DNA of 55,238 nt from Clostridiales bacterium (GTDB lineage: Bacteria > Bacillota > Clostridia > Peptostreptococcales > Anaerovoracaceae), in contig SVCQ01000012.1 in NCBI GenBank assembly GCA_015058275.1, positions 1 to 55,238 of the forward strand. The letters are read 5' to 3'. Within the stretch, counting starts at the first letter, position 1; the number at the start of each line of letters is the position of its first letter. Made by a program: the position numbers and the translations under genes. The notes under the pieces are model-generated. The model searched no databases. It saw only the letters and a list, made by a program, of their open reading frames with translations, and had not been told where the DNA came from. Shown here piece after piece: positions 91-31,255 of this stretch.

Positions 91-160
91 TTTGAACCGC
101 CGTATGCCGAACGGCACGTACGGTGGTGTGAAAGGGTGGAGAAAATCCACCCTATTCGAT
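91..160 (+). mobile_element. Group II intron 3' relic (domains V and VI)
   Basis: Bases 96-127 fold like a group II intron domain V. A nine-pair lower helix (ACCGCCGTA with TACGGTGGT, one G-U) is followed by a two-base CG bulge on the 3' side, a four-pair upper helix and a GAAC tetraloop. Bases 133-153 then form a perfect eight-pair domain VI-like hairpin (AGGGTGGA / TCCACCCT), followed by ATTCGAT, which resembles the 3' end of bacterial class C introns. No intron-encoded reverse transcriptase or domains I-IV are present before the IS21-like repeat, so this is a truncated remnant. It lies just upstream of the toxin-antitoxin genes. Confidence 0.7.
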
Positions 161-2926: not shown

Positions 2927-3115
2927 ATTTTCTATATTTCCTATATTTCCTGCAGAGCCCATTCTAAACCCATCCCGGGGATGTATCAACCACGGATGTC
3001 CGCAAATACGGGCGATTTTTAGATTGTCTCTTGATTAATGCAATCAGCGAGGATATAATGAGTCAGCATTTTGGAAACTAAGTTGAGAGAAGTAGTTTCC
3101 ACTAGGAGGTATTAT

Positions 3116-4237
3116 ATGTTATTTCAACTTTACAGCAATCACGCAGTGATGCAGCTCATCGGCTGGGTGCTCGTATTCTGCGGACTGATCCTCATGAACG
3201 AGATCGGCCGTCGCACAAAAGCGGGCGGCATGGTCGTATTCGTTATCATTCCGGTGATCCTGACCGTTTACTTCATACTCGCACACATGGGTATGTTCGG
3301 CGGATCCGAGAACCCTACAGTCGCATTCATGGACGGCTGGTTCCACTACTTCAAGCTCTATGCCGCTGATATCGGCTGCGTAGGCTTCATGATGATCAAG
3401 TACGAGTGGGGCATCGGCAAGGAGAAATGGTTTAAGTGGTTCCCATGGTTCATCGTTGCGGCCAACATCATGATCGCAAACGTATCTGACATGGAGTCTG
3501 CACTCGCTGCTTACGCTATCACCGGCGACCTCAGCGGAGCTTGGTGGGCATCGAACGAGGGCGTATTCATCTACGGCGGATGGTGGAACGTTGTCAATGC
3601 TATCGCAGGCATGATCAACATCTTCTGCATGACAGGATGCGTACACCTGCTCACTTCCAAGGACAAGAACATGTCCGACATGATCTGGCCTGACATGACC
3701 ATCTGGTTCATCGTGGCTTACGACATCTGGAACTTCGAGTACACTTACCTCAACCTGCCTACACATTCGTGGTACTGCGGCGTAGCACTTCTGCTCGCTC
3801 CTACATTCGCGAATGCTCTGTGGAACAAGGGCGCATGGATCCAGAACCGTGCCAACACACTGGCAATCTGGTGCATGTGGGCTCAGGTCGTACCTGCATT
3901 CCAGCTCTCCAGCAGATTCGCTGCTGCTCTCCCATCGGTTTACGGCGGAGCTACAGCTAAGGGCATCACAACCATGGATCTGTACGAGAAGGCTATCGCT
4001 CTGTACAACGCAGGCGGCGGCAAGACTGCTGAGGCAGGACAGATCATCGCAGATATGGGTATCACGGCTCATCCGACAGCTCAGGGCGTTGTCGCTATCC
4101 TCTCTATCGCAGCCAACGTTATCTGCATCGCAGTGATCATCAAGCGTTCCATCGAGATGGGCAAGAACCCATACTCCAACGATGTATTCGCAGGTACAAA
4201 GGATTACGAAGAGGCTATGGCAAGAGCCAGAGCATAA
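3116..4237 (+). CDS. DUF5692-like polytopic membrane protein
   Basis: A 373-aa, very tryptophan-rich membrane protein with about nine hydrophobic segments, which I recognise as the DUF5692 family of unknown function. Residues such as FPWFIVAANIMIA and WNFEYTYLNLPTHSWYCG mark membrane and loop regions. The start at ATG 3116 follows a perfect AGGAGGT five bases upstream; the frame is open to 3071 but that extension has no ribosome site. Codon choice is strongly biased (ATC, GGC, AAC, TAC), suggesting high expression. It stands alone, with its own terminator at 4274-4301. No function should be assumed; transport or sensing of a small hydrophobic compound is only a guess. Confidence 0.75.
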   Translation: MLFQLYSNHAVMQLIGWVLVFCGLILMNEIGRRTKAGGMVVFVIIPVILTVYFILAHMGMFGGSENPTVAFMDGWFHYFKLYAADIGCVGFMMIKYEWGIGKEKWFKWFPWFIVAANIMIANVSDMESALAAYAITGDLSGAWWASNEGVFIYGGWWNVVNAIAGMINIFCMTGCVHLLTSKDKNMSDMIWPDMTIWFIVAYDIWNFEYTYLNLPTHSWYCGVALLLAPTFANALWNKGAWIQNRANTLAIWCMWAQVVPAFQLSSRFAAALPSVYGGATAKGITTMDLYEKAIALYNAGGGKTAEAGQIIADMGITAHPTAQGVVAILSIAANVICIAVIIKRSIEMGKNPYSNDVFAGTKDYEEAMARARA

Positions 4238-7961: not shown

Positions 7962-8309
7962 TTATGAGTTGGATATCAGGGACAGGGCCTGCTCGATGAG
8001 GTCGTTGCTCTCGCCGAGCTTGTCGACCGCCTCGTGGATGAGGTCGCCTGCGACTTCGTCAAAGCTGTGAGCGAGGTCGTGGAGCTCCTCGGCGTGATGG
8101 CGGTTGTGATCGAGCATGTACTTTAGAAGTGCGAGTGCCTCCTCAGGCGAGGAAGCCGCAGCATGTGAGTGAGTATGTCCGTGCGAATGGGTGGTGCCAT
8201 CCGAGTGTGTGTGCTCATGGCAGTGGCCGCAGTGCTCGTGCTCATGTGTCTGGCTGTGGTCGTGATCGTGTTCAACGGATGCATGATCGTGTGTGTGTTC
8301 GTGGCTCAT
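7962..8309 (-). CDS. Histidine-rich small metal-binding protein
   Basis: A 115-aa soluble protein. Residues 1-50 are dominated by His with Glu, Asp, Thr and Ser (MSHEHTHDHAS, HCGHCHEHTHSDG, HSHGHTHSH), including two cysteines in HCGHCH. Residues 52-115 form an amphipathic helical region (EEALALLKYMLDHNRHHAEEL and on). Such proteins bind Ni, Co or Zn and are often annotated as cobalt/nickel chaperones. It is transcribed away from the dehydratase-like cluster that contains a CooC-type ATPase. Because CooJ, a His-rich nickel chaperone, partners CooC in CO dehydrogenase maturation, a similar role is plausible here, but this is inference from context only. Confidence 0.75.
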   Translation of the reverse strand: MSHEHTHDHASVEHDHDHSQTHEHEHCGHCHEHTHSDGTTHSHGHTHSHAAASSPEEALALLKYMLDHNRHHAEELHDLAHSFDEVAGDLIHEAVDKLGESNDLIEQALSLISNS

Positions 8310-8486
8310 TTCGGTCTCCTTTTGTGTCTCTTTGCGCCCTGCTGAAGGCGCTCTTTACTCTTCGAAGATATAGTATTTTCAGGCGGTTTACAACCCCATA
8401 TAGGGGATATTGATAAGGGCCTCAGTCAAGTACTAAAAAAATACAAAAACTGAATAGCCAAAACCAGTTTCCAGCCTCATATCTCA

Positions 8487-8516
8487 TTGACACATCGTTA
8501 ACAAGAGCCTTAAAAT
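8487..8516 (+). promoter_or_regulatory. Sigma-A-type promoter of the first dehydratase-like operon
   Basis: TTGACA at 8487-8492 and TAAAAT at 8511-8516 are separated by 18 bases. Transcription would start near 8523, leaving a leader of about 128 bases before the first subunit gene. Confidence 0.65.
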
Positions 8517-8522
8517 ATATCC

Positions 8523-8640
8523 AAGAGTATATCGTTAGGGGCAGTCTGTCCCCTGCGACCGGGCCAAAAACCGCTTTATATAGTCGCGGGCAGACCTGCC
8601 TCCCGATTTAGATTTTGCTGCTCAGAGAGGGAGAGGTAAG
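8523..8640 (+). promoter_or_regulatory. Structured 5' leader, candidate RNA switch
   Basis: Two mutually exclusive foldings are visible. A local hairpin pairs AGGGG (8537-8541) with CCCCT (8550-8554). A long-range helix pairs GGCAGTCTG (8540-8548) with CAGACCTGCC (8591-8600), one base bulged, and encloses an inner GCGAC (8555-8559) / GTCGC (8583-8587) helix. I do not recognise a known riboswitch class, and no terminator follows, so any control would probably act on translation or RNA stability. The remaining gap from 8310 to 8486 is AT-rich and shows nothing I can name. Confidence 0.4.
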
Positions 8641-8650
8641 GTGACACATA

Positions 8651-9841
8651 ATGCGTGACTTAAAGCATCTGATCTACTTTGAGGACCTGCTTCAGGAGGC
8701 TAACAACGAGTTAGTACGCAAAGGCAAAGAGGATGGCAATCTTTGCTTGGGCTACACTTGTTACTTCATGCCTGAGGTCCTTCTCGATCTGCCTGGCTGC
8801 TTCGCAGTAAGACTGAGAGCGCCAAGATGTACTTCCCCGGATATGGCTTCTTACTATATGTCCGGACGTACATGCCACTACGGCAGATCTCTACTGGAAA
8901 GAGCTCTGGAGGGAGGCTTCAATTTCATTGACGCCCAGCTTGCAACCGAGACCTGCACGGTCACTTGCAGATTCCAGGAGCACCTCGAGTACATGGACGG
9001 CGTTATCAACAACGCTACGTTCAAGACCGAATTCACCGACGTACCATTTAAGAAAAACGAAAACAGCATCGATCACTACAGGAAACAGCTTAGGATCCAC
9101 GTACTTGACTTCCTTTCAAGGGAGTTTGGCGTGGACGTTTCTGATGATGCTATCCGCAAGGCGATCGAGATCAACAACGAGGTCAACGACATCATCACTG
9201 AGATCGGTAACTTCCGCAAGCTCGACAACCCGACTATCACGGGATATGAGTTCAGCGTGATCACACTGGTCTCGATGGTATGCCCTAAGTACCTGATCGT
9301 CGACAAGCTCAGAGAGACCCTCGAAGAGCTCAAGACAAGAGAGCCTGACGACAAGCCTAACTACAAAATCAAGGTCATGCTGGCAGGTTCCGAAAACGAC
9401 GATCCTGACTTCATCAAGCTGATCGAAGGCTGCGGAGCTCTCGTAGTAGCTGACAGATACTGCTACGGCTCGCTCGAAGCCAGAAATCACATCGATATCG
9501 CGGACGGCGAAGATCCTCTGACTGCTGTCGCAAGACACTACCTGATGACAAGCCAGTGCGCGAGATTCATGGAGCAAAAGGAAATGAGACACCGCAAAAA
9601 GGTGCTCGCCGATTACGCCAAGGAGTACAAGGCTGACGGTATCATCGTAGAATCCAACAAGTTCTGCGAGTACTGGAGCTTTGAGAGGATGATCGATACG
9701 ATCGTACTGCCGAGAGACTTCGGATATCCGGTATGCTCCATCGAAAAGGAGTACATCAACACCGCATCCGGACAGCTCAGGACAAGATTCCAGGCGTTCG
9801 TCGAGAGCGTAGAGCTCAAGAAGATCCAGGAGGGCAAGTAA
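8651..9841 (+). CDS. 2-hydroxyacyl-CoA dehydratase-like subunit (HgdB/BcrC type), pair 1
   Basis: A 396-aa member of the 2-hydroxyacyl-CoA dehydratase / benzoyl-CoA reductase family (HgdB, HadC, BcrC). Likely iron-sulfur ligands are Cys37 (GYTCYFMPE), Cys75 (TCHYGRSLLE) and Cys339 (KFCEYWSFE); DRYCYG at about 271 is also conserved with its paralog. The C-terminus GQLRTRFQAFVESVE is the family hallmark. The family removes water from, or adds electrons to, activated acyl-CoAs after ATP-driven one-electron injection by an HgdC-type activase; one lies at 18307-19098. It ends two bases before the pair-1 large subunit. Paralog: 14916-16106, same length. The true substrate, and whether it is a CoA ester at all, is unknown. 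Confidence 0.85.
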   Translation: MRDLKHLIYFEDLLQEANNELVRKGKEDGNLCLGYTCYFMPEVLLDLPGCFAVRLRAPRCTSPDMASYYMSGRTCHYGRSLLERALEGGFNFIDAQLATETCTVTCRFQEHLEYMDGVINNATFKTEFTDVPFKKNENSIDHYRKQLRIHVLDFLSREFGVDVSDDAIRKAIEINNEVNDIITEIGNFRKLDNPTITGYEFSVITLVSMVCPKYLIVDKLRETLEELKTREPDDKPNYKIKVMLAGSENDDPDFIKLIEGCGALVVADRYCYGSLEARNHIDIADGEDPLTAVARHYLMTSQCARFMEQKEMRHRKKVLADYAKEYKADGIIVESNKFCEYWSFERMIDTIVLPRDFGYPVCSIEKEYINTASGQLRTRFQAFVESVELKKIQEGK

Positions 9842-9842
9842 G

Positions 9843-11480
9843 ATGAAGAAACCTGATTTAAGCAAACTCAAGGAAGTCGACTTCAAGAAGGCAGCCAGGG
9901 ATTTCGTCTACGGCAAGCCTCACGGAGAGAGAAGACTCGGAGACCTGTACATCCCTAAGACAGGTCTGTACAAACACAGAGAATGGCGTGGTATCAAGGA
10001 TACCATGTACTACTTCAATAACATCTGGCTGTACAACTACGGCATGATCGTACGCGACCTCATGGTCTACGGCGGCGGCCCTAAGGGTGCGGTCCAGTTC
10101 CTCAAGGGTACCTGGAGATACAGATGGATGGGCCAGACATATCTGACAGTTATGCACTGGTTCGACCGCTGCCTCGAGGGTATGAGAGGTGAGACGCTCA
10201 AGGCGTCCGCATGGCACTTCAGAGGTATCACAAGCGCATGCCTGTACCAGATCACAGGTTTCTTCAACAGAGACCTCAACATCGGCGGAGACCCGGCTCT
10301 GAGAGCCAAGACTATCGGTACCGACGAGACAGTCTGGGGCGGCATCATCTATCCGTACATGGATCAGGGCGGCTACTACCTGCCTACACAGATGATCCCG
10401 TACTTCGTAACATGCCACTGCAATAACCACACAGTACTCAACTACATCGATGCTGTTCAGGCTTACGGACTTCCGGGCGACCCTTGCCCGATGTGCCAGG
10501 CCGAGGCCGGCATCTACATCGAGGACGATGTACCTGATTCATACGTCGCAATGGTTACTACAAACGAGGCCTGCGACAGCTCGGTAGGTACTTCTGTCAT
10601 TCAGGACTGGATGATGAACAAGCCGCTCTTCGCGATGCCTCAGGTAATGCAGTTCGACGACGATTCCGTTCTCGAGAACTGCGCCAAGGAGATCGAGATG
10701 GCCTGGAGGTTCATTGAAGAGCAGACAGGACTCGAGTTCCACTGGGAAGAGCTCAAAAAGCACATCGAGCTCCAGAACAAACAGACCCAGTTCGAGAGAG
10801 AGAAATGGGATGTGGCTGCCAATACACACAGCTATCCTATCAACGGCGTAGCTCAGGCTCTGTACAGGATCTTCTACTCGCAGTACGGCGAGAGACCGTT
10901 CTGGCACGATGTTGACGCCAAGGTCAAAAAGATCATGGAGAAGTGCGTAAACGAAGACATCAACACCTTCCCTATGACAAGACACAGAGTCATCGCATGG
11001 TCATGCGCTCCTCTGTACTACTCGGCATGGTGCACATGGGCTTACAACTGCTGGGGACTCAACACCATCATCAACATGGACTCGCTGATGTTCGACCTGG
11101 ATATCAGGACAGACACTTACGAGAACTGCCTGATGGATATAGCAAAATATCACGAGTGGGCACCGATGAGAAGAATGGCCGTAGGCGGACTGCAGCACAT
11201 CTTCGAGCTCTGGGAGAACATGGAGAAGTTCAACTGCGACATGGTCATGATGTACGACCAGCTCCAGTGCAAGGGCATGCAGGGCGTTGTCGGCCTCTTC
11301 GAGGACGAGTTCAGAGCCCGCAACATCCACGCTATCTGGATGCCGCACGCACTGCCTGACAAGAGGACAGTTCCAAGGTCACAGATCAGACAGATCATCA
11401 ACGACTACATGTTCACCGTAATGGGTGAGGAACCTCTCGATCCGTCACTGCTTGACTTTGACGATATCGACAGCTGGTAG
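9843..11480 (+). CDS. 2-hydroxyacyl-CoA dehydratase-like large subunit (HgdA type), pair 1
   Basis: A 545-aa partner subunit of the same superfamily, distinctly longer than the usual 400-480 residues. Three cysteines shared with the pair-2 subunit are Cys215 (GLPGDPCPMC), Cys244 (NEACDSS) and Cys476 (LQCKGM), consistent with one Fe-S cluster per subunit. The C-terminal stretch after Cys476 follows the family pattern (IHAIWMPHALPDKRTVPRSQ). The N-terminal 130 residues are aromatic-rich (REWRG at 46-50, then YYFNNIWLYNY and RYRWM) and are not part of ordinary HgdA proteins. The gene starts two bases after the small subunit and is followed, 14 bases on, by a one-helix small protein. Heterodimer formation with the 396-aa protein is expected. 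Confidence 0.8.
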   Translation: MKKPDLSKLKEVDFKKAARDFVYGKPHGERRLGDLYIPKTGLYKHREWRGIKDTMYYFNNIWLYNYGMIVRDLMVYGGGPKGAVQFLKGTWRYRWMGQTYLTVMHWFDRCLEGMRGETLKASAWHFRGITSACLYQITGFFNRDLNIGGDPALRAKTIGTDETVWGGIIYPYMDQGGYYLPTQMIPYFVTCHCNNHTVLNYIDAVQAYGLPGDPCPMCQAEAGIYIEDDVPDSYVAMVTTNEACDSSVGTSVIQDWMMNKPLFAMPQVMQFDDDSVLENCAKEIEMAWRFIEEQTGLEFHWEELKKHIELQNKQTQFEREKWDVAANTHSYPINGVAQALYRIFYSQYGERPFWHDVDAKVKKIMEKCVNEDINTFPMTRHRVIAWSCAPLYYSAWCTWAYNCWGLNTIINMDSLMFDLDIRTDTYENCLMDIAKYHEWAPMRRMAVGGLQHIFELWENMEKFNCDMVMMYDQLQCKGMQGVVGLFEDEFRARNIHAIWMPHALPDKRTVPRSQIRQIINDYMFTVMGEEPLDPSLLDFDDIDSW

Positions 11481-11494
11481 AAAGGAGGCCGGTA

Positions 11495-11704
11495 ATGAAG
11501 GCAAAAAAAATCATCAAAAGAACGCTCGGTCTCGCTGCTGCCGCTTACGCGGGACTGTTCTGCGTATTCTATTTCGATCTCGACGGCAAGCTGCTCTACT
11601 ACGTTGTTGAGCCGTTCATGAAGAACCACTTCGACAACATGGAGAGAAGAGATCCGCACACAGTACCGTACGACATGCTCGATTCCGAATACATGGACAA
11701 GTAA
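11495..11704 (+). CDS. Small one-helix membrane protein of dehydratase-like pair 1
   Basis: A 69-aa protein with a basic N-terminus (MKAKKIIKRTLG), one hydrophobic helix (about 10-28, LAAAAYAGLFCVFYF) and a soluble C-terminus with DLDGKLL followed by FDNMERRD. AAAGGAGG precedes the start, 14 bases after the large subunit, so it is co-transcribed. It resembles the 60-aa protein at 19117-19299: both have a basic start, one helix, then LDxKLL and, 10-11 residues later, FD. No family is recognised. A role in membrane tethering or subunit assembly of the dehydratase-like complex is inference from position. Confidence 0.75.
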   Translation: MKAKKIIKRTLGLAAAAYAGLFCVFYFDLDGKLLYYVVEPFMKNHFDNMERRDPHTVPYDMLDSEYMDK

Positions 11705-11747
11705 TTCAATTAAAACGAAAGGCGGCGTCCTAATACAAAACAAAGGG

Positions 11748-11856
11748 CTGTCATCCTGAGCGCAGCGAAGGATCTCATGGATTACGCAGATTGCGATGAG
11801 ATTCTTCGTCGCTGCGCTCCTCAGAATGACAGAGGACGCGGACTCAGAATGACAGA
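11748..11856. repeat. Interspersed palindromic repeat (GTCATCCTGAGCGCAGCGAAG type)
   Basis: An imperfect inverted repeat. CTGTCATCCTGAGCGCAGCG at 11748 is mirrored by CGCTGCGCTCCTCAGAATGACAG ending at 11832, and a shortened extra arm (CTCAGAATGACAG) follows at 11843-11855. Repeats with this sequence are scattered in many bacterial genomes and produce spurious translated matches such as ILRSAATKN and EILRCAQDD on the minus strand. It is flanked by the inverted heptamers GGCGGCG and CGCCGCC. It separates the pair-1 genes from htpG. Confidence 0.8.
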
Positions 11857-11926
11857 GCGGTGTTGTCCGCAAGGTAATGAGGGCGCCGCCTAGTTACAAA
11901 TCAGAATAGAAAGAAGTTATCGCTAA

Positions 11927-13831
11927 ATGAAGAAGAAGTTTAAAGCCGAATCCCAGCGTCTGCTGGATATGATGATCAATTCGATCTACACGCACAAGGA
12001 GATCTTCCTGCGTGAGATCATCTCCAACGCATCCGATGCCATCGACAAGATGTGCTACCTGGCACTCACCGACAAGAACGTCGGCATGAGCCGCAGCGAT
12101 TTCGAGATACTCATAACTCTCGACAAGGAGAACCGTACTCTTACGGTCAGCGACAACGGGATCGGCATGAACTCCGAAGACCTCGAGCAGAACCTGGGAG
12201 TCATCGCATTCTCGGGCAGCCACGAGTTCTCTGAGGAGCTCGAAAAGAAAAAGAACGAGCCGGGTCTCAGTGACACCGACAAGGTGGATATCATCGGACA
12301 GTTCGGAGTGGGATTCTATTCCGCATTCATGGTATCCGACAAGGTCGAGGTAGTCACCAAGAAGTACGGCGAGAACAAGGCCTGGAGGTGGACCTCCGAG
12401 GGCACGGGCGGATACACAATAGAGGAAGCCGAGAGAGACGGCCAGGGTACGGATGTCATCATGCACATCCGCCAGGACGGCGAGGAGGAAGACGAATACA
12501 GCAAGTACATGAGGGAATACCCTATCTACAAGCTGGTAAGGAAGTACTCCGACTACATCCGCTTCCCGATCAAGATGCTCATGCCTTATCCGAAGGTCAA
12601 GGAGGGCTCAGACCCTGAGAACCCTGAGTACGAGGAAGTCTACGATTACGAGACTCTCAACTCCATGGTGCCGCTGTGGCAGCGCAAGCGCGCAGACGTC
12701 ACAAAGGAGGAGTACGACGAGTTCTACAAGTACACATTCCAGGACGACCTGACTCCGCTTGAGGTCATGACGGCCTCGGTCGAGGGCATGGTCAGCTACG
12801 ATGCTCTGATGTTCATCCCGCAGATGGTGCCTAACAAGTACTACACGGATGAGTTCTCAGGCGGACTCCAGCTGTACAGCTCGGGCGTCCTCATCATGGA
12901 GAAGTGCAAGGAGCTCCTGCCGGAGTACTTCAACTTCGTAAGGGGCGTGGTCGATTCGCCGGATCTCTCGCTGAACGTTTCGCGAGAGATGCTCCAGCAC
13001 GACCGCCAGCTCCGCCTTATCTCGCAGAACCTCGAGAAGAAGATCAGATCCAAGCTCGAGGAGATGAGGGACAAGGACCGTGAGACATACGAGACCTTCT
13101 ACAAGAGCTTCGGGCGCCAGCTCAAGCTCTGCGCTCTCGATGACTACGGCAAGTACAAGGATCAGCTTCAGGACTTCCTGATGTTCTACTCCTCGACAGA
13201 GGAGAAGCCTGTCACTCTCGCGGAGTACGTCGGGAGGATGAAGGACGACCAGGAGTACATATACTACGCATCGGGCGACAGCCTCGAGGCTGTGGACAAG
13301 ATGCCGCAGACAGAGATACTCAAGGACAAGGGCATCGAGATCCTGTACTTCACAGACAGCACGGACGAGTTCATCCCTGACATGTTCAGGGTCTACAAGG
13401 ACAAGAAGTTCATGTCCGTCATCGACGGCGATTACGACCTCGGCGACAGCAAGAAGGATGAAGAGGCAGACAAGATCTTCAAGGATTGCTTCGACTTCGT
13501 CAAGGAGACTCTGGGCGACAAGGTGGATGTGGTCAAGGCGACCACCAAGCTCAAGACTCACCCGGTATGCCTCTCCAGCGGCGAGGGCATCACCTTCGAG
13601 ATGGAGAAGTACTTCACGGCTGTCAATCCGGATCTGGGCATGAAGGCCAAGCGCATACTCGAGCTCAATGTGGATCACAAAGCCTTTCTGGCGCTCGACA
13701 GGGCCAGGGTGGATGATCCGGAGAGAGCAAAGGCCATGTGCGAGGTGCTCTTCAATCAGGCTCTCCTGATAGCGGGTCTCCCGCTCCAGGATCCGAGCGC
13801 CTATACTGACACAGTTACGTCGCTATTCTAA
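11927..13831 (+). CDS. htpG: Molecular chaperone HtpG (Hsp90)
   Basis: A 634-aa bacterial Hsp90. The N-terminal ATPase (GHKL) domain begins KAESQRLLDMMINSIYTHKE and shows IFLREIISNASDAIDK, the DNGIGM motif and GQFGVGFYSAF. The middle and C-terminal dimerisation domains follow to the usual length. HtpG assists folding of selected cytosolic clients, using ATP. It lies between the first dehydratase-like operon and the CooC-like gene, with repeats on both sides (11748-11856 and 13940-13997). This may be chance, but a chaperone inside a complex-metalloenzyme locus could serve its assembly. The start site has only a weak ribosome site (AGAAAGAAG). Confidence 0.97.
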   Translation: MKKKFKAESQRLLDMMINSIYTHKEIFLREIISNASDAIDKMCYLALTDKNVGMSRSDFEILITLDKENRTLTVSDNGIGMNSEDLEQNLGVIAFSGSHEFSEELEKKKNEPGLSDTDKVDIIGQFGVGFYSAFMVSDKVEVVTKKYGENKAWRWTSEGTGGYTIEEAERDGQGTDVIMHIRQDGEEEDEYSKYMREYPIYKLVRKYSDYIRFPIKMLMPYPKVKEGSDPENPEYEEVYDYETLNSMVPLWQRKRADVTKEEYDEFYKYTFQDDLTPLEVMTASVEGMVSYDALMFIPQMVPNKYYTDEFSGGLQLYSSGVLIMEKCKELLPEYFNFVRGVVDSPDLSLNVSREMLQHDRQLRLISQNLEKKIRSKLEEMRDKDRETYETFYKSFGRQLKLCALDDYGKYKDQLQDFLMFYSSTEEKPVTLAEYVGRMKDDQEYIYYASGDSLEAVDKMPQTEILKDKGIEILYFTDSTDEFIPDMFRVYKDKKFMSVIDGDYDLGDSKKDEEADKIFKDCFDFVKETLGDKVDVVKATTKLKTHPVCLSSGEGITFEMEKYFTAVNPDLGMKAKRILELNVDHKAFLALDRARVDDPERAKAMCEVLFNQALLIAGLPLQDPSAYTDTVTSLF

Positions 13832-13939
13832 TTCAATAAAAGGAGCGTTTTTATAGTCTCTGCCGGGCACGCTCGCGCTAAAGTTCGGACGCAGCGGTAC
13901 TAAGCTCTGTCTGCGCCTAACGGCTCGTCAATCGCATTT

Positions 13940-13997
13940 ATCGGAGGCGCTTGCCGCCGAAGATCAATGCTTTCGACATTACGGCAACGCCGTTATG
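13940..13997 (-). repeat. 58-bp palindromic repeat (REP-like), copy 1
   Basis: One unit of a dispersed element seen also at 17978-18193 and 41122-41179. Read on the minus strand it has an ACGGCGTTGCCGT hairpin, a GATC-containing linker and a second hairpin (CGGCGGC / GCGCCTCCG). The unit is 58 bp long at each locus. Confidence 0.8.
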
Positions 13998-14077
13998 TCA
14001 AAGAAAGCATTTAGTGCCGGCGTCCTCAATTTACCCGGCCAGAGCCTATAAAACCGCACAGTAACACAGTAACAATA

Positions 14078-14845
14078 ATGGAAGAGAAGAGAGATACTAA
14101 GATTTTAACAGTGGCCGGCAAGGGCGGCGTAGGCAAGACCTCGATCTCATCTGCGATGGTCAGGATACTCACTGAGGAGTACCCTGATGCGAGGATTCTT
14201 GCGATCGACGCAGACCCGGCCATAGGACTCACTACCGCACTCGGAGTTGAGGTCACAGACACGCTCGACGGCATCCGCAAGAAGATCGTCGGCAGCGTGG
14301 AGGACGGCCGCCCGAAGGAGGCCATCGAGATGCTCAACGAGGCGCGCTTCCGCATCTTCGACACCATGCTCGAGGAGCAGAAGTTCAGCTTCCTGGCGAT
14401 CGGACGCCCGGAGGCAGCAGGTTGCTACTGCAAGGTCAATGCTTACCTCAAGGAGGTCATCAGCCTCCTGGCCAATGACTTCGACTACGTCGTCATCGAC
14501 GGTGAGGCCGGCATCGAGCAGATCAACCGCCGCGTCATGGAGAAGGTCACACATCTTTTCCTGATCACGGATCCGAGCCGCAAGGGCTGCAAGGTAGTGG
14601 ATACCATCAAGGAAGTTGCCGATGAGCTCGTCATGTACGACAAATGCGGAGTCATCGTCAACAGAGTCAAAGAGGAGTCGATCCCTCACATCAAGATCGA
14701 ATCGGCTGAGGTGCTGACGTACATACCTGAGGACAGGACCCACGCCGAAAACGACATCATGGGAGTCAGCGTGTTCGATCTGCCGGAGGATTCACCGGTC
14801 ATGCTCGGTACACGCGAGGCGCTCCGCAAGATGGAGATAATTTAG
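14078..14845 (+). CDS. CooC/AcsF-like nickel-insertion-type P-loop ATPase
   Basis: A 255-aa MinD/SIMIBI-class ATPase. It has the deviant Walker A motif GKGGVGKT at 14-21, IDADPA at 43-48 and the CooC-type CXC metal site at Cys116-Cys118 (GCYCKVN). Walker B-like DYVVIDGEAGIE follows. CooC proteins dimerise, bind Ni(II) at the CXC pair and drive nickel insertion into CO dehydrogenase; AcsF does so for acetyl-CoA synthase. No CODH gene is in the window; instead it sits between two dehydratase-like pairs and 4.5 kb from an acetyl-CoA-synthase-like protein. The client is therefore unclear. The start ATG has a poor ribosome site, which may mean translation is limited or that the start lies slightly downstream. 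Confidence 0.88.
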   Translation: MEEKRDTKILTVAGKGGVGKTSISSAMVRILTEEYPDARILAIDADPAIGLTTALGVEVTDTLDGIRKKIVGSVEDGRPKEAIEMLNEARFRIFDTMLEEQKFSFLAIGRPEAAGCYCKVNAYLKEVISLLANDFDYVVIDGEAGIEQINRRVMEKVTHLFLITDPSRKGCKVVDTIKEVADELVMYDKCGVIVNRVKEESIPHIKIESAEVLTYIPEDRTHAENDIMGVSVFDLPEDSPVMLGTREALRKMEII

Positions 14846-14915
14846 TTATTAATGTCATCCGGGCGCTGCCGCGGATGGCGGGTAGTTTATAACTGTTAGA
14901 GAGGGGGTTAGCACA

Positions 14916-16106
14916 TTGAAAGACTTGAAGCACCTAATCTACTTCGAAGGTCTTCTTGACAACGCTGACAACGAACTCGTGGAGCAGGCCAGAAAGGACG
15001 GCAAGTATATCATGGGATATACCTGCTATCACATCCCTGAGGTGCTCCTGAACGTTGACAAATGCGTTTCAGTCAGACTGCGCGCTCCGAGGACGGGATC
15101 GATCGACATCTCTACCTACTACATGTCGAACTACGTCTGCGAGTATGCGCGTGCTCTGCTCGAGAGGGCGATCGAAGGAGGATTCCAGTTCCTGGACGGA
15201 CTTGCTGCAGTTGATGCCTGCTCAATGATGAACAGATTCTATGAGCATTTTGGCATCCTCAAATGCAACACCAAGGACCACTTCTTCCTGCCGATACTGG
15301 ATGTTCCTTACAAGACTGAGGACTTCTCCTACGATCACATGCAGAGACAGCTCGAGACCAGACTGCTCGCTGCCATGCATGACCATCTGGGAGTGGATGT
15401 TTCCGACAAGGCCATCAGAGAGGCTGTCAAGGAGCACAACGAAGTCTGCAAGATCATGCAGGAGATCAGCGAGATGAGAAAGGCCGACAATCCGGTCATC
15501 ACGGGCTATGAGTTCCACGTTCTCAGCATCGTGACCTACACATGCCCTAAGTACCTGATCCTGCCTTATCTCAAAGAGACTCTCGAAGAGCTCAAGAAGA
15601 GAAAACCGGACGACAAGCTGCCTAGAGCAAGAGTCGGCATCGTAGGCTCGGAGATCGACGATCCTGAGTTCACAAAGATGATCGAAGCTGCAGGCGCGAG
15701 AGTAGTATTCGACAGACACTGCTTCGGTACTATTCCTGGAAGAGAGATCATCGAGCTTTCCGACAAGGAAGACGCTCTGCCGCAGATCGTACGCCACTAC
15801 ATGAACACTTCCGAGTGCGCCCGCTACATCGCAGACAACAAGGTCAAGCAGAGAAGAGAGACTGCGGACAGACTCGCCAAGGAGTTCAAGGCAGACGGAA
15901 TCATCTACGAGCAGATGAAGTACTGCGACTTCTGGGGATTCGAAAGAGCTCTGGTCAGCCACATCATGTCGGAGGAGTACGGATGGCCTGTACTGTCGAT
16001 CGACAGACTGTACAACGCAAAGGGCTCCGGCCAGCTCAGGACGAGATTCCAGGCGTTCGTAGAATCGCTTGAGATCAAAAAGATCCAGAAAGGAGGCAAG
16101 AAGTAA
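14916..16106 (+). CDS. 2-hydroxyacyl-CoA dehydratase-like subunit (HgdB/BcrC type), pair 2
   Basis: A 396-aa paralog of the 8651-9841 protein. It shares the opening LKHLIYFEGLL, Cys37 (GYTCYHIPE), Cys75 (YVCEYARALLE), the DRHCFG motif, Cys337 (KYCDFWGFE) and the GQLRTRFQAFVESLE ending. The start is a TTG at 14916 behind GAGGGGG, giving exactly the paralog's length. Its stop TAA shares one base with the ATG of the large subunit (TAATG), so the pair is translationally coupled. It is expected to form a heterodimer and to receive electrons from the HgdC-like activase. The substrate is not known; the paralog pair may act on related substrates or as sequential steps. Confidence 0.85.
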   Translation: MKDLKHLIYFEGLLDNADNELVEQARKDGKYIMGYTCYHIPEVLLNVDKCVSVRLRAPRTGSIDISTYYMSNYVCEYARALLERAIEGGFQFLDGLAAVDACSMMNRFYEHFGILKCNTKDHFFLPILDVPYKTEDFSYDHMQRQLETRLLAAMHDHLGVDVSDKAIREAVKEHNEVCKIMQEISEMRKADNPVITGYEFHVLSIVTYTCPKYLILPYLKETLEELKKRKPDDKLPRARVGIVGSEIDDPEFTKMIEAAGARVVFDRHCFGTIPGREIIELSDKEDALPQIVRHYMNTSECARYIADNKVKQRRETADRLAKEFKADGIIYEQMKYCDFWGFERALVSHIMSEEYGWPVLSIDRLYNAKGSGQLRTRFQAFVESLEIKKIQKGGKK

Positions 16107-17971
16107 TGGTAATAAGCACAGAATTATTGGGCATCAAAAACTCTCTTGCCGAAAAAGCCGAAAAGAGAGCCCAAAAGGCTGCTGCCAAAGGCAAATTCAA
16201 ATATCCTAATCCTGCATTCTGGCGCTGCAAAGACAATATGGACTTCAAGGCCCAGGGCAAGAACCTCATGGAAGTCGGCAAGATCATCATGGACATGACC
16301 AAGGAAGCCGACATCAAGGCGTTTTGCGAGAAGCAGGTAGAGAGATGCAGAGACGACCTCGCAAGATGCGCTCTCGAGATCAAGCAGGCGACTGAGATGA
16401 GCCCTGAAGAGCTCAAGGAAGTATTCCTCTACGGAGAGAAGACCCTCGGCAAGCTCTACCGCAAGGGCGACATGGTCCCTGTAAGAAGAGAGTGGAGAGG
16501 TGCTGCTGACACAGCATACGACTTCTACAGATGGGGCAAGATGTGGCTCATGCTGCTGACTACATTCAGCAGAGACCTCATTCCGGCCCTCAACTCCACC
16601 TTCTACTACAGATGGATGATCTCGTACTTCTGCTGCGTAGGCTTCATGGACAAGAACACATCGGGTCAGAAGGGCAGCGCACTCAAGATGTCGCACCTCA
16701 TGACATACGATATCTTCCGCTATGTAGCTGAGAACCTCGTATTCCTTGCCAAGTGCGACAAGAAGAACGGTAACTCCGCAGCACTCAACAAAAAGGTCGT
16801 ACTCTTCGACGAGATGACCATGGGACAGATCATGGCCGGATTCCCGGATCTGCTCGGTATCCCTTACCAGCTGATGCCGGTATTCCTGGTATCCGAGATC
16901 GACCAGCTGACCTGCGTACCGTATATCGATGCAGTCGAGTCCTTCGGACTGCCGGCTGACACCTGCCCGGTACCTTCGTCAGAGTGCGGTGCGCTCGTAA
17001 TCGACGCTCTGCCTCACATGGGATCCTGCTTCATCTCGAGTTCGATGCCTTGCGACGGCTCGGTAATGGCTTCCGAGTACATGTCGAGAAGGTTCCCGGA
17101 TCTGCCGGTATACCACCTGACATTCCCGGTAAGATACGAGTACGAAGAGACTACTCAGGATGCGGTACAGGATATCAAGGGCTGCATCAAGTTCGTAGAG
17201 GAAGTCACAGGTGCGAAGTGGAGCTGGGATGCTTACTTCAAGCAGATGAAGCGCTTCAACGAAGAGACTGCATATGAGCTGCAGAAGTGGGAAGTCAACA
17301 AGACCGACTATCCGCAGATCATCGGACCTTCGTACGAGCTCTTCCGTAAGTGGAACTACGAGATGGACGGCGGTGCCGATCCTCGTATCATAAAGACCTT
17401 CGAGAAGGTCAACGACATCATGATGAAGGGCTACGAGAGACGCGAAGAAGCATGGCGCGGCAAGATGAAGTACAGAGGAATCGTATGGTCCTGCCCGGCT
17501 CACTACTACGCAAACTTCTCGAACTGGCTCGCAAACTGCTGGGGAATCGACATCCTCGTCGAGATGGAGTCGCTCAACTTCACCAAGAAGCTCGAGACAG
17601 AGGACAAGGAAGAGGCTCTCATGGACCTCGCAAGACTCTACGAGCGTATGGTAATGAGAAGACACACCAACGGCGGTTACCACAACGTTGTAGACGAGAT
17701 GTGGAGACAGGTCGAAGACTGGAGAGCGGAGATCATCATCATGTACCAGAACGTAGCATGCAAGAACATGGCTACACTTCAGGGAATCCTCGACGATACA
17801 TGCAGAGACAGAGATGCTCACATGATCTGGATCGAGCACGACCTGATGGACCCTCGTACAGTATCGCGTAAGACGATGAGAGACAAGGTCAACGAGTACA
17901 TGAGGACGGTCATGCACGCTGAGCCGGTAGACCCGACACTCTGCGACTTCGACGACGAGTTAGGTATGTAA
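16106..17971 (+). CDS. 2-hydroxyacyl-CoA dehydratase-like large subunit (HgdA type), pair 2
   Basis: A 621-aa subunit, longer still than its 545-aa paralog because of about 82 extra N-terminal residues (Lys/Ala-rich start, then FCEKQVERCRDDLARC, a cysteine-bearing helix). The shared part begins at REWRG (128-132). Conserved cysteines are Cys287 (GLPADTCP), Cys316 (MPCDGS) and Cys552 (VACKNM), at almost the same spacing as in pair 1. The C-terminal HMIWIEHDLMDPRTVSR matches the family pattern. It overlaps its small subunit by one base. Immediately downstream are three tandem copies of the 58-bp palindromic repeat, which separate it from the activase. The family assignment is firm in the C-terminal half and weaker for the N-terminal third. 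Confidence 0.8.
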   Translation: MVISTELLGIKNSLAEKAEKRAQKAAAKGKFKYPNPAFWRCKDNMDFKAQGKNLMEVGKIIMDMTKEADIKAFCEKQVERCRDDLARCALEIKQATEMSPEELKEVFLYGEKTLGKLYRKGDMVPVRREWRGAADTAYDFYRWGKMWLMLLTTFSRDLIPALNSTFYYRWMISYFCCVGFMDKNTSGQKGSALKMSHLMTYDIFRYVAENLVFLAKCDKKNGNSAALNKKVVLFDEMTMGQIMAGFPDLLGIPYQLMPVFLVSEIDQLTCVPYIDAVESFGLPADTCPVPSSECGALVIDALPHMGSCFISSSMPCDGSVMASEYMSRRFPDLPVYHLTFPVRYEYEETTQDAVQDIKGCIKFVEEVTGAKWSWDAYFKQMKRFNEETAYELQKWEVNKTDYPQIIGPSYELFRKWNYEMDGGADPRIIKTFEKVNDIMMKGYERREEAWRGKMKYRGIVWSCPAHYYANFSNWLANCWGIDILVEMESLNFTKKLETEDKEEALMDLARLYERMVMRRHTNGGYHNVVDEMWRQVEDWRAEIIIMYQNVACKNMATLQGILDDTCRDRDAHMIWIEHDLMDPRTVSRKTMRDKVNEYMRTVMHAEPVDPTLCDFDDELGM

Positions 17972-17977
17972 GCTTTC

Positions 17978-18193
17978 CTCCGAATGATACGGCGTTGCCG
18001 TAAGGTCGGAAAGCTTGATCTTCGGAGGCTGGGCTCCTCCGATAGAAGCTATCTCCGAATGATACGGCGTTGCCGTAAGGTCGGAAAGCTTGATTTTCGG
18101 AGGCTGGGCTCCTCCGATAGAAGCTATCTCCGAATGATACGGCGTTGCCGTAAGGTCGGAAAGCTTGATCTCCGGAGGCTGAGCTCCTCCGAT
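17978..18193 (+). repeat. Three tandem 75-bp units of the REP-like palindromic repeat
   Basis: Copies start at 17978, 18053 and 18128, exactly 75 bp apart and nearly identical; the third differs by a few bases (CTCCGGAGG, GAGCTC) and lacks the end. Each holds a 58-bp core with two hairpins, TACGGCGTTGCCGTA and CGGAGGCTGGGCTCCTCCG, plus a 17-bp spacer. The array lies between the pair-2 large subunit and the activase, and each copy can form stable RNA hairpins that may stop 3' decay or dampen read-through. Confidence 0.92.
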
Positions 18194-18232
18194 AAAACGT
18201 GGAAACTGAGAGACAAAAATCGGTTCCACATA

Positions 18233-18277
18233 CAGTTGGAATATGATAGAATCCAACTGGCAAAATAGTACTTTTTT
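18233..18277 (+). terminator. Hairpin plus T-run upstream of the activase gene
   Basis: A perfect eight-pair stem (CAGTTGGA / TCCAACTG) is followed twelve bases later by TTTTTT at 18272-18277. It resembles a weak terminator or attenuator in the activase leader; the gap to the T-run makes this uncertain. Confidence 0.35.
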
Positions 18278-18306
18278 AACAAAAAGATATATAAGGAGAA
18301 AAAGAA

Positions 18307-19098
18307 ATGAAATATTATGGCGGCTGTGATGTAGGTTCAACTTATACTAAGGCAGTTATCCTCGATGAGGACGGCAAGATCGTAGCTGATACTACCATCA
18401 AGAGCAAGATCAATTCCGAGCAGTCTGCAAAGCTCGCTATGGACGAAGTTCTCGGTAAGGTAGGTCTCAAGTCCTCCAAGGACCTCGAGTACCTCATCGG
18501 TACAGGTTACGGACGTAACAAGGTTCCGTTTGCTGACGAGAACATCTCCGAGATCTCCTGCCACGCTATGGGAGTTCACGTAACAGATCCGAGCGTAAAG
18601 GCTATCATCGATATCGGCGGACAGGACGTCAAGGGTATCGCTGTTGACACAGACGGCACAGTCAAGAACTTCGCTATGAACGACAAGTGCGCCGCAGGTA
18701 CAGGCAGATTCTACGAGGCTATGGCCAGATCCTTTGAGATGACTCTCCCTGAGTTCTCGAAGCTCTCCCTCACAGCCAAGAACGTAATTCCTATCACTGC
18801 ACAGTGCACGGTATTCGCTGAGTCCGAGGTAATCACTCTCGTTGGTGAGAACAAGCCTATGGACGAGATCGCTGCAGGCATCCAGATGGCCGTAGCCAAG
18901 AGATGCTTCGTAATGGCCAAGAAGGCCGGCGCTACTGACTCCATCACTCTTACAGGCGGATGCGCCAAGAACGACGGACTCAAGGACGCTATCGAGCACG
19001 TACTCAAGCTCAAGGTCATCAACCTCAAGACTGACCCGCAGCTCATGGGAGCTCTCGGCGCTGCTGAATTCGCTCGCCAGAAGGGACAGGCCAGGTAA
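18307..19098 (+). CDS. 2-hydroxyacyl-CoA dehydratase activase (HgdC type, ATP-dependent)
   Basis: A 263-aa BadF/BadG/HgdC-family ASKHA ATPase. Visible are the phosphate loop GGCDVGSTYTKAVI, GTGYGR (65-70), DIGGQDVKG, the NDKCAAGTGRF motif with Cys128, and Cys167 in AQCTVFAESEV. In HgdC a homodimer holds one [4Fe-4S] cluster between two cysteines from each subunit and uses ATP to fire a low-potential electron into the dehydratase. AAGGAG precedes the ATG. It is the only activase in the window, so it probably serves both dehydratase-like pairs. It is followed by a one-helix small protein and the acetyl-CoA-synthase-like gene. Confidence 0.93.
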   Translation: MKYYGGCDVGSTYTKAVILDEDGKIVADTTIKSKINSEQSAKLAMDEVLGKVGLKSSKDLEYLIGTGYGRNKVPFADENISEISCHAMGVHVTDPSVKAIIDIGGQDVKGIAVDTDGTVKNFAMNDKCAAGTGRFYEAMARSFEMTLPEFSKLSLTAKNVIPITAQCTVFAESEVITLVGENKPMDEIAAGIQMAVAKRCFVMAKKAGATDSITLTGGCAKNDGLKDAIEHVLKLKVINLKTDPQLMGALGAAEFARQKGQAR

Positions 19099-19116
19099 TC
19101 CGAAAGGAGCACTACA

Positions 19117-19299
19117 ATGAAGAAATCCAAAAAATGCCCGGTCTGCAGGCTGCTCAAGACTACATGTGTGGTCGGCACCACTGCAGTGGGAACGCTCTTT
19201 ACGGTCTACATGCTCAACCTCGACCAGAAGCTCCTCGCATGGGCTTACGCAAGAGTGAATGAGATCTTCGACCGCAAGGAAGTGGACATCAAATTCTAA
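19117..19299 (+). CDS. Small one-helix membrane protein next to activase
   Basis: A 60-aa protein: basic, cysteine-containing start (MKKSKKCPVCRLLKTTC, with CPVC), one hydrophobic helix (about 18-34, VVGTTAVGTLFTVYML), then NLDQKLL and IFDRKEVD. GAAAGGAG precedes the ATG, 18 bases after the activase gene. It shares the basic start, single helix and LDxKLL...FD pattern with the 69-aa protein at 11495-11704. The extra CPVC might bind metal or Fe-S. Unknown function; the repeated association with the dehydratase-like genes is the main clue. Confidence 0.7.
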   Translation: MKKSKKCPVCRLLKTTCVVGTTAVGTLFTVYMLNLDQKLLAWAYARVNEIFDRKEVDIKF

Positions 19300-19311
19300 T
19301 TGCACTTACAC

Positions 19312-19343
19312 GGAATCCCCTGTACTCGAGTGCAGGGGATTCC
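19312..19343. terminator. Perfect inverted repeat between small protein and ACS-like gene
   Basis: An 11-base arm (GGAATCCCCTG) and its exact complement (CAGGGGATTCC) enclose ACTCGAGT, itself a palindrome. No T-run follows, so it could be a processing or stability element rather than a terminator. Confidence 0.5.
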
Positions 19344-19389
19344 TGTATATTTCAAACCGTACGGACGCAACGGGACCGAGAGGAATATT

Positions 19390-20130
19390 ATGGAACTGTA
19401 TAATTCAATTATCGAAAAGATCGACGGGCTGATCGGTGATTCTGTCCAGCCTAAGCGTTATGAATATAACCCGGCGAAGTGCTGGGAGGACGTCGGCGGC
19501 AACCAGCTCGTAATGATGAAGGAAGCCGCATATGAGCTCGGCGGAGACGGCAAGGCGGCTGTGAGCTATGCCTGCGTTACTTCGGGCGACTATGTAGACA
19601 AGGACGAGATCCTCGTATACGGCAAGGACCTCGGCGAGATAAACGGCAGTGTACCATTCGCGAGGATAGCCGTCATCAAGGTCGGCGATCTCCGAGGAGA
19701 GGGCGAGGAGGATACCGAGACTCTCTTTAGGGCGATACAGGACATCGACTTCGTCAAGTACCACGTATATCCTAAGGGATACATGATCAGATCGTCTTCG
19801 GACAGCCACCGCGAGCAGGTAAGAGTCTCCAAGGAGGCCGTCAGGAAGGGCATCAACTTCGAGGAAGTCGGCAACTCATACATCAGCCAGTTCAAAAAGA
19901 ACCCTGATGTAAAGGCCGTCAGGATGATATTCATCACCTGCGACGGACCGGACTTTGCCGAGATGAAGAAAGACGCCAGGAAGGTCAGAGACATCACCAA
20001 GACCCTGTCCAAGATACTCGAGGGCATGTCGACGGACTGCCATACATGCAGCCTCAAGGACATCTGCGACGAGGTGGAGGGCCTCAAGGAGCTGCACTTC
20101 GGCAAGGAGAAGAAAGAGTTCAAGGGCTAA
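19390..20130 (+). CDS. Stand-alone acetyl-CoA synthase (CdhC/AcsB) central-domain-like protein
   Basis: A 246-aa protein similar to the middle domain of acetyl-CoA synthase up to the start of its A-cluster. The run DEILVYGKDLGEI, then PFARIAVIKVGD, then HREQVRVSKEAVRKGINFEEV and SYISQFKKNPDVKAVRMIF corresponds to AcsB segments around its HTAQRDLTWVRISKEAF region. Near the C-terminus Cys217-X2-Cys220-X5-Cys226 sits where AcsB has the first A-cluster cysteines; the nickel-binding C-terminal domain and the N-terminal CODH-binding domain are absent. ATG 19390 follows AGAGGA; the open frame from 19300 crosses a hairpin and is unlikely to be translated. It could be a small Fe-S or ligand-binding subunit for the neighbouring enzymes. 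Family by recognition, not search. Confidence 0.65.
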   Translation: MELYNSIIEKIDGLIGDSVQPKRYEYNPAKCWEDVGGNQLVMMKEAAYELGGDGKAAVSYACVTSGDYVDKDEILVYGKDLGEINGSVPFARIAVIKVGDLRGEGEEDTETLFRAIQDIDFVKYHVYPKGYMIRSSSDSHREQVRVSKEAVRKGINFEEVGNSYISQFKKNPDVKAVRMIFITCDGPDFAEMKKDARKVRDITKTLSKILEGMSTDCHTCSLKDICDEVEGLKELHFGKEKKEFKG

Positions 20131-30799: not shown

Positions 30800-31255
30800 A
30801 TGGTAAAGGAAGTTGTTCTTGAGAAGATGCTCGCTGATGCGACAGAGAATTTCACAACGGGATACATGTGCTCCGAGTCCGTGCTCGAGGTGCTTAACCG
30901 CCACTATGAGCTCGGCATCGGCGAGGAGGCGATAGCGCTGTCGACGGGCTTCCCGTACGGCTTCGGCGACGGCGGCAATGTATGCGGCGCAGTCGCTGGC
31001 GCGACCATGTGCCTCGGCAAGGTCTTCGGCAGGACGGTCAAGGGCGATCCGGCCTTCCGGAAGTGCATAGACCTTGTAAGGGAGCTCAACGAGGACGTAG
31101 CGAAGGAATACGTGAGCAGCATCTGTCCTGAGCTGATCGCGGATTATGAGTTCACAGATCCGGAACGCAAGAAGTACTGCACCGGAATAGTGCACTGCTG
31201 CATCAGGTCCTTTGCGAAGATAATGGAGCGTGAATGCGGGGTCGCGGTCAGATAA
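30800..31255 (+). CDS. C_GCAxxG_C_C family putative redox protein
   Basis: A 151-aa protein with the cysteine pattern that names the family: Cys24 in YMCSESV, VCGAVAGATMC with two cysteines, and KKYCTGIVHCC near the C-terminus. Members occur widely in anaerobes, sometimes as selenoproteins; here every position is a normal Cys codon. A redox or metal role is assumed for the family, but the reaction is unknown. AGGAGG precedes ATG 30800, shortly after prmA. Confidence 0.9.
   Translation: MVKEVVLEKMLADATENFTTGYMCSESVLEVLNRHYELGIGEEAIALSTGFPYGFGDGGNVCGAVAGATMCLGKVFGRTVKGDPAFRKCIDLVRELNEDVAKEYVSSICPELIADYEFTDPERKKYCTGIVHCCIRSFAKIMERECGVAVR

Follow-up and report, generated by a model that had tools for sequence, protein, structure and literature searches.

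Which kind of enzyme system is encoded by a locus that joins two pairs of HGD-D subunits and an activase to a CooC-like ATPase and a protein derived from acetyl-CoA synthase (ACS)? The locus lies at positions 7962 to 20130 of the 55,238-nt contig SVCQ01000012.1 (hereafter the window), which is contig C32 of a Clostridiales metagenome-assembled genome (MAG; 1.82 Mb, 83% complete). A sequence-only reading had regarded the parts as one reductase or dehydratase system with a metal-maturation arm. We found that the locus is a conserved branch of predicted double-cubane reductases with maturation genes of the carbon monoxide dehydrogenase (CODH)/ACS type. With moderate confidence, we further favor a reading in which it encodes membrane-anchored, ATP-driven double-cubane reductases that share one maturation arm of CooC and the ACS-like protein (ACSl).

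The two HGD-D pairs (396 + 545 aa and 396 + 621 aa), the ATPase, the activase, the truncated ACS-like protein (Pfam CdhC, E 6.9e-7), a His-rich protein and two small one-helix proteins were all found where the sequence-only reading had placed them. Its gene list had omitted an HtpG gene inside the locus, and it had started ACSl at TTG 19300; homologues start at the position of ATG 19390, which is probably the start of this gene too. The genes are as follows:

7962..8309, minus strand: His-rich protein, 115 aa with 25 His
8651..9841, plus strand: B1, HGD-D subunit of 396 aa (Pfam HGD-D, 294.8 bits) with six double-cubane-type cysteines
9843..11480, plus strand: A1, HGD-D subunit of 545 aa (Pfam HGD-D, 99.1 bits) with an N-terminal extension and, from its cysteines, a predicted catalytic [4Fe-4S] cluster
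11495..11704, plus strand: hel1, one-helix protein of 69 aa, cognate to B1/A1
11927..13831, plus strand: HtpG/Hsp90 chaperone (NF003555, 661.4 bits, above the cut-off of 371)
14078..14845, plus strand: CooC-like P-loop ATPase with Cys116-X-Cys118 (best PDB match CooC1 3kje, E 5e-17)
14916..16106, plus strand: B2, HGD-D subunit of 396 aa with a TTG start (Pfam, 299.8 bits) and six double-cubane-type cysteines
16106..17971, plus strand: A2, HGD-D subunit of 621 aa (Pfam, 122.6 bits) with a predicted catalytic [4Fe-4S] cluster
18307..19098, plus strand: activase of BadF/HgdC type (TIGR00241, 217.1 bits, above the cut-off of 125.4)
19117..19299, plus strand: hel2, one-helix protein of 60 aa
19390..20130, plus strand: ACSl, 246 aa, ACS middle domain plus a Cys-X2-Cys-X5-Cys...His tail

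B1 and A1 are separated by one base, and B2 shares its last base with A2. In the gap that separates A2 from the activase gene, a 75-bp unit occurs in three tandem copies (17978-18202).

When B2 was compared with PDB entries, BzdN gave the best match (88 bits), followed by DCCP (61) and 3o3m_B (52). Cys 37, 75, 102, 269, 301 and 337 of B2 align with all six reported [8Fe-9S] ligands of BzdN, Cys36/73/100/263/293/327 (PMC11971306). The six cysteines are kept in 54/54 B proteins, with position 269 kept in 53, so that the three conserved cysteines per subunit of the earlier reading have to be raised to six for B. The beta subunit of the dehydratases has three protein cluster cysteines (PMC11574389), and B does not fit this beta type of the 2-hydroxyacyl-CoA dehydratases. 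B1 and B2 scored 136 and 139.3 bits against the DCCP model NF040772, their top NCBIfam model (cut-off 350), 82.4 and 90 bits against BzdN TIGR03190 (cut-off 453.8), 70.2 and 72.4 bits against HadC NF052456 (cut-off 700), and were also far under the BcrC cut-off of NCBIfam. The tight grouping with known enzymes that would speak against a separate system was thus not seen. A quickly built tree of 64 B rows places the window's B1 in a supported group with a Holdemanella MAG and Butyrivibrio, and its B2 groups with Butyrivibrio and others. The activase has Cys128 and Cys167, present in 61/61 sequences, which we take to be the two cluster ligands that the earlier reading had pointed out. Activases are described as having two cluster cysteines per monomer (PMC11574389).

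In A, Cys287, Cys316 and Cys552 correspond to the BzdO-type cluster set, the third aligning weakly with BzdO and better with MbdO; here the count of three conserved cysteines stands. A further cysteine, Cys478, is kept in 67/69 A proteins but was discarded as a fourth cluster ligand because the MbdO alignment places it where the helix following strand 1 of the C-terminal domain ends; it probably lies away from the cluster. The best fold matches of A2 include BzdO and 3o3m_A, in comparisons that hardly cover its N-terminal part, the first ~60 residues of which are modeled with low confidence. In class I benzoyl-CoA reductase, Tyr97 binds the thioester (PMC11971306). At two positions after the first cysteine (Cys+2), where three CoA-ester enzymes have Tyr, Met, Val or Leu was found in 69/69 A proteins, the first-Cys motif being Cys-Pro-[MVL].

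These comparisons bear directly on whether the locus encodes a CoA-ester reductase that resembles class I benzoyl-CoA reductase in its clusters and in its path of electrons, the extra genes assisting in assembly only. BzdNO (PDB 8s02; PMC11971306) does share with our system the six double-cubane cysteines of B, the three [4Fe-4S] cysteines of A and an ATP-driven activase, and both the first rank of BzdN among the matches of B and the presence of BzdO and 3o3m_A among the best folds of A2 agree with such an enzyme. However, our A has a long N-terminal part and no Tyr at Cys+2, the equivalog scores are far under the cut-offs, including that of BzdN, and the locus links a one-helix protein, CooC and ACSl. 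In addition, no CoA-ligase, CoA-transferase or aromatic pathway gene was found in the scanned window open reading frames (ORFs). We therefore regard a CoA-ester reductase as unlikely. In the reading that we favor, the substrate is probably a hydrophobic, unsaturated molecule that is not bound as a CoA thioester.

We give a similarly low chance to a reductase of a small soluble molecule resembling DCCP (PDB 6eno; NF040772), for which the one-helix protein would be an accessory. The six-cysteine signature of B and the stand-alone activase are features shared with DCCP. In favor of this reading, NF040772 is the best NCBIfam model of B, and the first motif of A, Cys-Pro-[MVL], is nearer to the Cys-Pro-Leu of DCCP than to Cys-X-Tyr. 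Unlike DCCPs, which are described as homodimers (PMC11971306), our system has two distinct subunits encoded by separate genes with different cysteine sets, B reaches 136-139 bits against a cut-off of 350, and maturation genes are linked. Moreover, a distinct DCCP-like gene, accompanied by an activase of its own, is present on contig C17 of the genome.

To see how far the gene set is conserved, named genome contigs were scanned with five aligned ACSl proteins, and the best 80 of 81 relatives were numbered as loci L025-L104; all locus counts are conditional on ACSl. The set keeps its order on dozens of named contigs, which come from several families, a recurrence that is more than chance. Among the 50 loci with at least 6.3 kb upstream, CooC, B, A and the activase stand upstream of ACSl on the same strand in 42, and blastp recognised a one-helix gene in 33 of these complete loci. 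CooC without B/A precedes ACSl in six more, and the remaining two are incomplete (L081 has no activase; L097 has no CooC and B). As the sequence-only reading had supposed, the parts thus belong to one system, and a scattering of the genes in relatives, which would have spoken against it, was not observed. In L057-L063, L065, L066 and L078, CooC and ACSl stand together, with B/A and the activase not directly upstream; the pair may there serve clients elsewhere in the genome. HtpG is present in 19/80 loci, and hel1 is placed 3' of A1-type genes in Butyrivibrio loci as well. The four Butyrivibrio loci that were examined over their full extent have hel1-A1-B1 divergent from CooC-B2-A2-activase-hel2-ACSl-flavoprotein.

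Many Clostridia of gut and rumen carry the set. By title, the carriers are Mogibacterium-like rumen, goat, sheep and horse MAGs, Butyrivibrio, other Lachnospiraceae and Oscillospiraceae, with single loci in one Treponema MAG and in Acetobacterium dehalogenans. In a class sample, the ACSl profile matched 13/391 genomes. Seven of these have frames of ACSl size (234-276 aa); the frames of the other six span 537-719 aa and probably encode true ACS. No match came from the 7 further genomes in this sample that belong to the window's own family. Relatives of the His-rich protein adjoin the locus in L053, L056, L075, L098, L116 and L121 by blastp, and in L119 and L120 by pattern search. A literature search, with most subscription journals outside its coverage, found no description of the operon.

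What, then, would the CooC and ACSl genes contribute? ACSl consists of the ACS middle domain, a new Cys motif and a His, and the three Cys and the His at its end are invariant. Against acetyl-CoA synthase equivalogs it scored 21.9-34.4 bits (cut-offs 356-809), and at 246 aa it lacks the nickel-bearing A-cluster module that follows the middle domain in ACS. A working acetyl-CoA synthase was rejected, since ACSl ends after the middle domain. The P-loop ATPase is most like CooC, and the Cys-X-Cys pair already noticed in the earlier reading is invariant in 56/56 sequences. As a client for CooC, no CODH or further ACS was found in the 83%-complete MAG: PF03063 (CODH/prismane) had 0 matches, and PF03598 finds ACSl only. 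PF00374 ([NiFe]-hydrogenase) likewise had 0 matches in the MAG. The earlier statement that CoA-transferase, Etf and CODH genes are absent nearby was borne out, as none was found among 39 further window ORFs scanned with Pfam (a set chosen by us, two of them the one-helix proteins), the search for CoA-transferase and Etf being confined to the window.

The copy numbers bear on the same question. Four B/A pairs, one ACSl and two stand-alone activases were counted in the MAG, so CooC and ACSl look like shared helpers. The further B/A pairs, on contigs C27 (L009 6463-9473) and C7 (L010 7474-10301), have no adjoining CooC or ACSl; that on C27 carries its own one-helix gene. In the quick tree these pairs fall, together with operon genes of Lachnospiraceae, into a third group, the C27 gene being flagged as a long, unsure row. 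The second stand-alone activase lies on C17 beside a DCCP-like gene cut by the contig end (NF040772 333.5 bits, cut-off 350). The activase count leaves out a weak match on C25 and a 1,439-aa frame on C12 that contains two activase domains (G000:C12:7608-9317; L132, L133). The latter may be akin to the large activase fusions known from plasmalogen synthesis. Plasmalogen synthesis as a parallel to the system was dropped.

A metal-maturation arm of CooC and ACSl, one of the claims of the sequence-only reading, is plausible from these sequences, given that the pair occurs even without B/A and that one ACSl accompanies four pairs. Its link to nickel is a reasoned guess by analogy: nickel enters CODH with the help of CooC and the small His-rich protein CooJ (PMC6006190). 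Our system has in common with CODH/ACS maturation a Cys-X-Cys ATPase, a small His-rich neighbour and an ACS-derived protein, the His-rich protein being CooJ-like in size and composition by analogy only. It differs in three ways: the searches of the MAG found no CODH, the nickel module is absent from ACSl, and an HGD-D reductase would take the place of the client.

Taken together, we propose that the locus would encode a membrane reductase forming a branch of the benzoyl-CoA-reductase/hydroxyacyl-CoA-dehydratase/DCCP superfamily. The activase would spend ATP to push electrons into B, the putative [8Fe-9S] double cubane of B would store them, and A would hold the catalytic [4Fe-4S] site; the one-helix protein would anchor the pair to the membrane. 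Maturation of the active metal site would fall to CooC and ACSl with the aid of the His-rich protein, perhaps through nickel insertion, and HtpG may assist folding; a single helper set would serve the four B/A pairs of this genome. The superfamily performs some of biology's hardest reductions. A membrane-tethered branch without the CoA-ester Tyr, tied to maturation genes of the CODH/ACS type, would widen the chemistry of the superfamily and join two metalloenzyme worlds.

The complex could instead serve another metalloenzyme, for example the neighbouring flavoproteins, by activating it reductively or supplying it with electrons, and not reduce the substrate itself; the type of these flavoproteins varies by lineage (OYE in Butyrivibrio; IsrA-like in L080, L084-L089 and L117). 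Most loci have no such flavoprotein neighbour, however, and A keeps all three active-site cysteines, which makes this role improbable. Lower still stands a 2-hydroxyacyl-CoA dehydratase of the classical kind, as used in amino-acid fermentation. The two-subunit layout is shared with 2-hydroxyisocaproyl-CoA dehydratase (PDB 3o3m). The Pfam HGD-D matches with an activase, and 3o3m as a top fold match of A2, speak for this reading, but we set it aside on cysteines, scores and gene context: B has six, not three, cluster cysteines, A has no Tyr at Cys+2, HadC scores are 70-72 against 700, and no CoA-transferase or Etf is among the scanned ORFs. Of the 'reductase or dehydratase' alternatives of the earlier reading, the dehydratase is thus the less supported, because the six-cysteine signature of B is like that of BzdN/DCCP and A lacks this Tyr. 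Equally remote is ACSl as a catalytic nickel subunit with a carbonyl or acyl group, B/A reducing the bound C1 or acyl unit, since the nickel-site module is absent from its 246 aa, one ACSl faces four pairs and no CODH was found in the MAG, despite its homology to the ACS middle domain and its invariant three Cys and His.

If the locus is a membrane-anchored double-cubane reductase, what might it reduce? ACSl was found in 27/79 Butyrivibrio genomes (with one stop codon in 3/27 matches). In each of these 27 genomes, the contig that carries ACSl also encodes, as its immediate neighbour, an OYE-type, ene-reductase-like flavoprotein (at least 80% identity; 26 whole, that of G459 split in two), which is present in 0/52 Butyrivibrio genomes without ACSl. 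Flavoproteins with 27-29% identity to it occur in L023, L076 and L082. The A. dehalogenans locus has an aldehyde oxidoreductase and an alcohol dehydrogenase upstream. The operon is also present in B. proteoclasticus P18 (L070) and in genome G394. To our knowledge, no gene has been assigned to the stearate-forming step of rumen biohydrogenation; strain Su6 presumably forms stearate. B. proteoclasticus is described as the bacterium that converts polyunsaturated fatty acids all the way to stearate (PMC2914790, PMC4901502). The Butyrivibrio flavoprotein and the B. proteoclasticus operon are suggestive of a fatty-acid link. As a long shot, the two-pair rumen locus might be the missing last biohydrogenation enzyme, a membrane-bound, ATP-driven and nickel-dependent double-cubane reductase that saturates isolated double bonds in fatty acids and so turns vaccenate into stearate; conjugated dienes would be the substrates of the OYE-type flavoprotein. 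If so, a gene set would be named for the rumen stearate formation that shapes milk and meat fat, and a new alkene reductase class would be in hand, a nickel-iron-sulfur system outside CODH/ACS.

Several points weigh against this lead. The 27 Butyrivibrio carriers may be one clade, the counts being uncorrected for descent; the 52 genomes without ACSl need not include the vaccenate-forming B. fibrisolvens; a strict peptide pattern did not list B316; and for many carriers, among them A. dehalogenans and bacteria of the mouse and rabbit gut, no link to fatty acids is known. A flavoprotein of the window's own genome (54% identity to the Butyrivibrio one) was dropped as support, as genes at 53-62% are common without ACSl and a second Butyrivibrio paralogue lies at about 53-59%.

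A comparison can also be drawn with IsrA, a putative isoprene reductase (PMC10134865). With HypA/HypB it combines a proposed C=C reduction with nickel chaperones, as our system may, and IsrA-like genes are near; it differs in being a flavin and FeS oxidoreductase, not an HGD-D protein. An IsrA-like gene, so labeled from size, domains and HypA neighbour and not from comparison with the IsrA sequence, lies 3' of ACSl in L080 and L084-L089 (HypA in six of the seven) and in L117 (with HypA). On the own contig C34 (L129 6338-10207), an IsrA-like oxidoreductase (930 aa), one HypA and a TetR-like gene stand side by side. The membrane protein DUF5692 is a frequent neighbour of IsrA homologues according to PMC10134865. 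A DUF5692 gene lies in the window at 3071-4237, plus strand (PF18948, 424.6 bits), and was rejected as a member of the system, its relatives occurring in 0 of loci L020-L104. Elsewhere in the window, a group II intron match is found at 95-160, plus strand (Rfam, 44.1 bits against 40), and a C_GCAxxG_C_C protein, putative and redox-active, is encoded at 30800-31255, plus strand.

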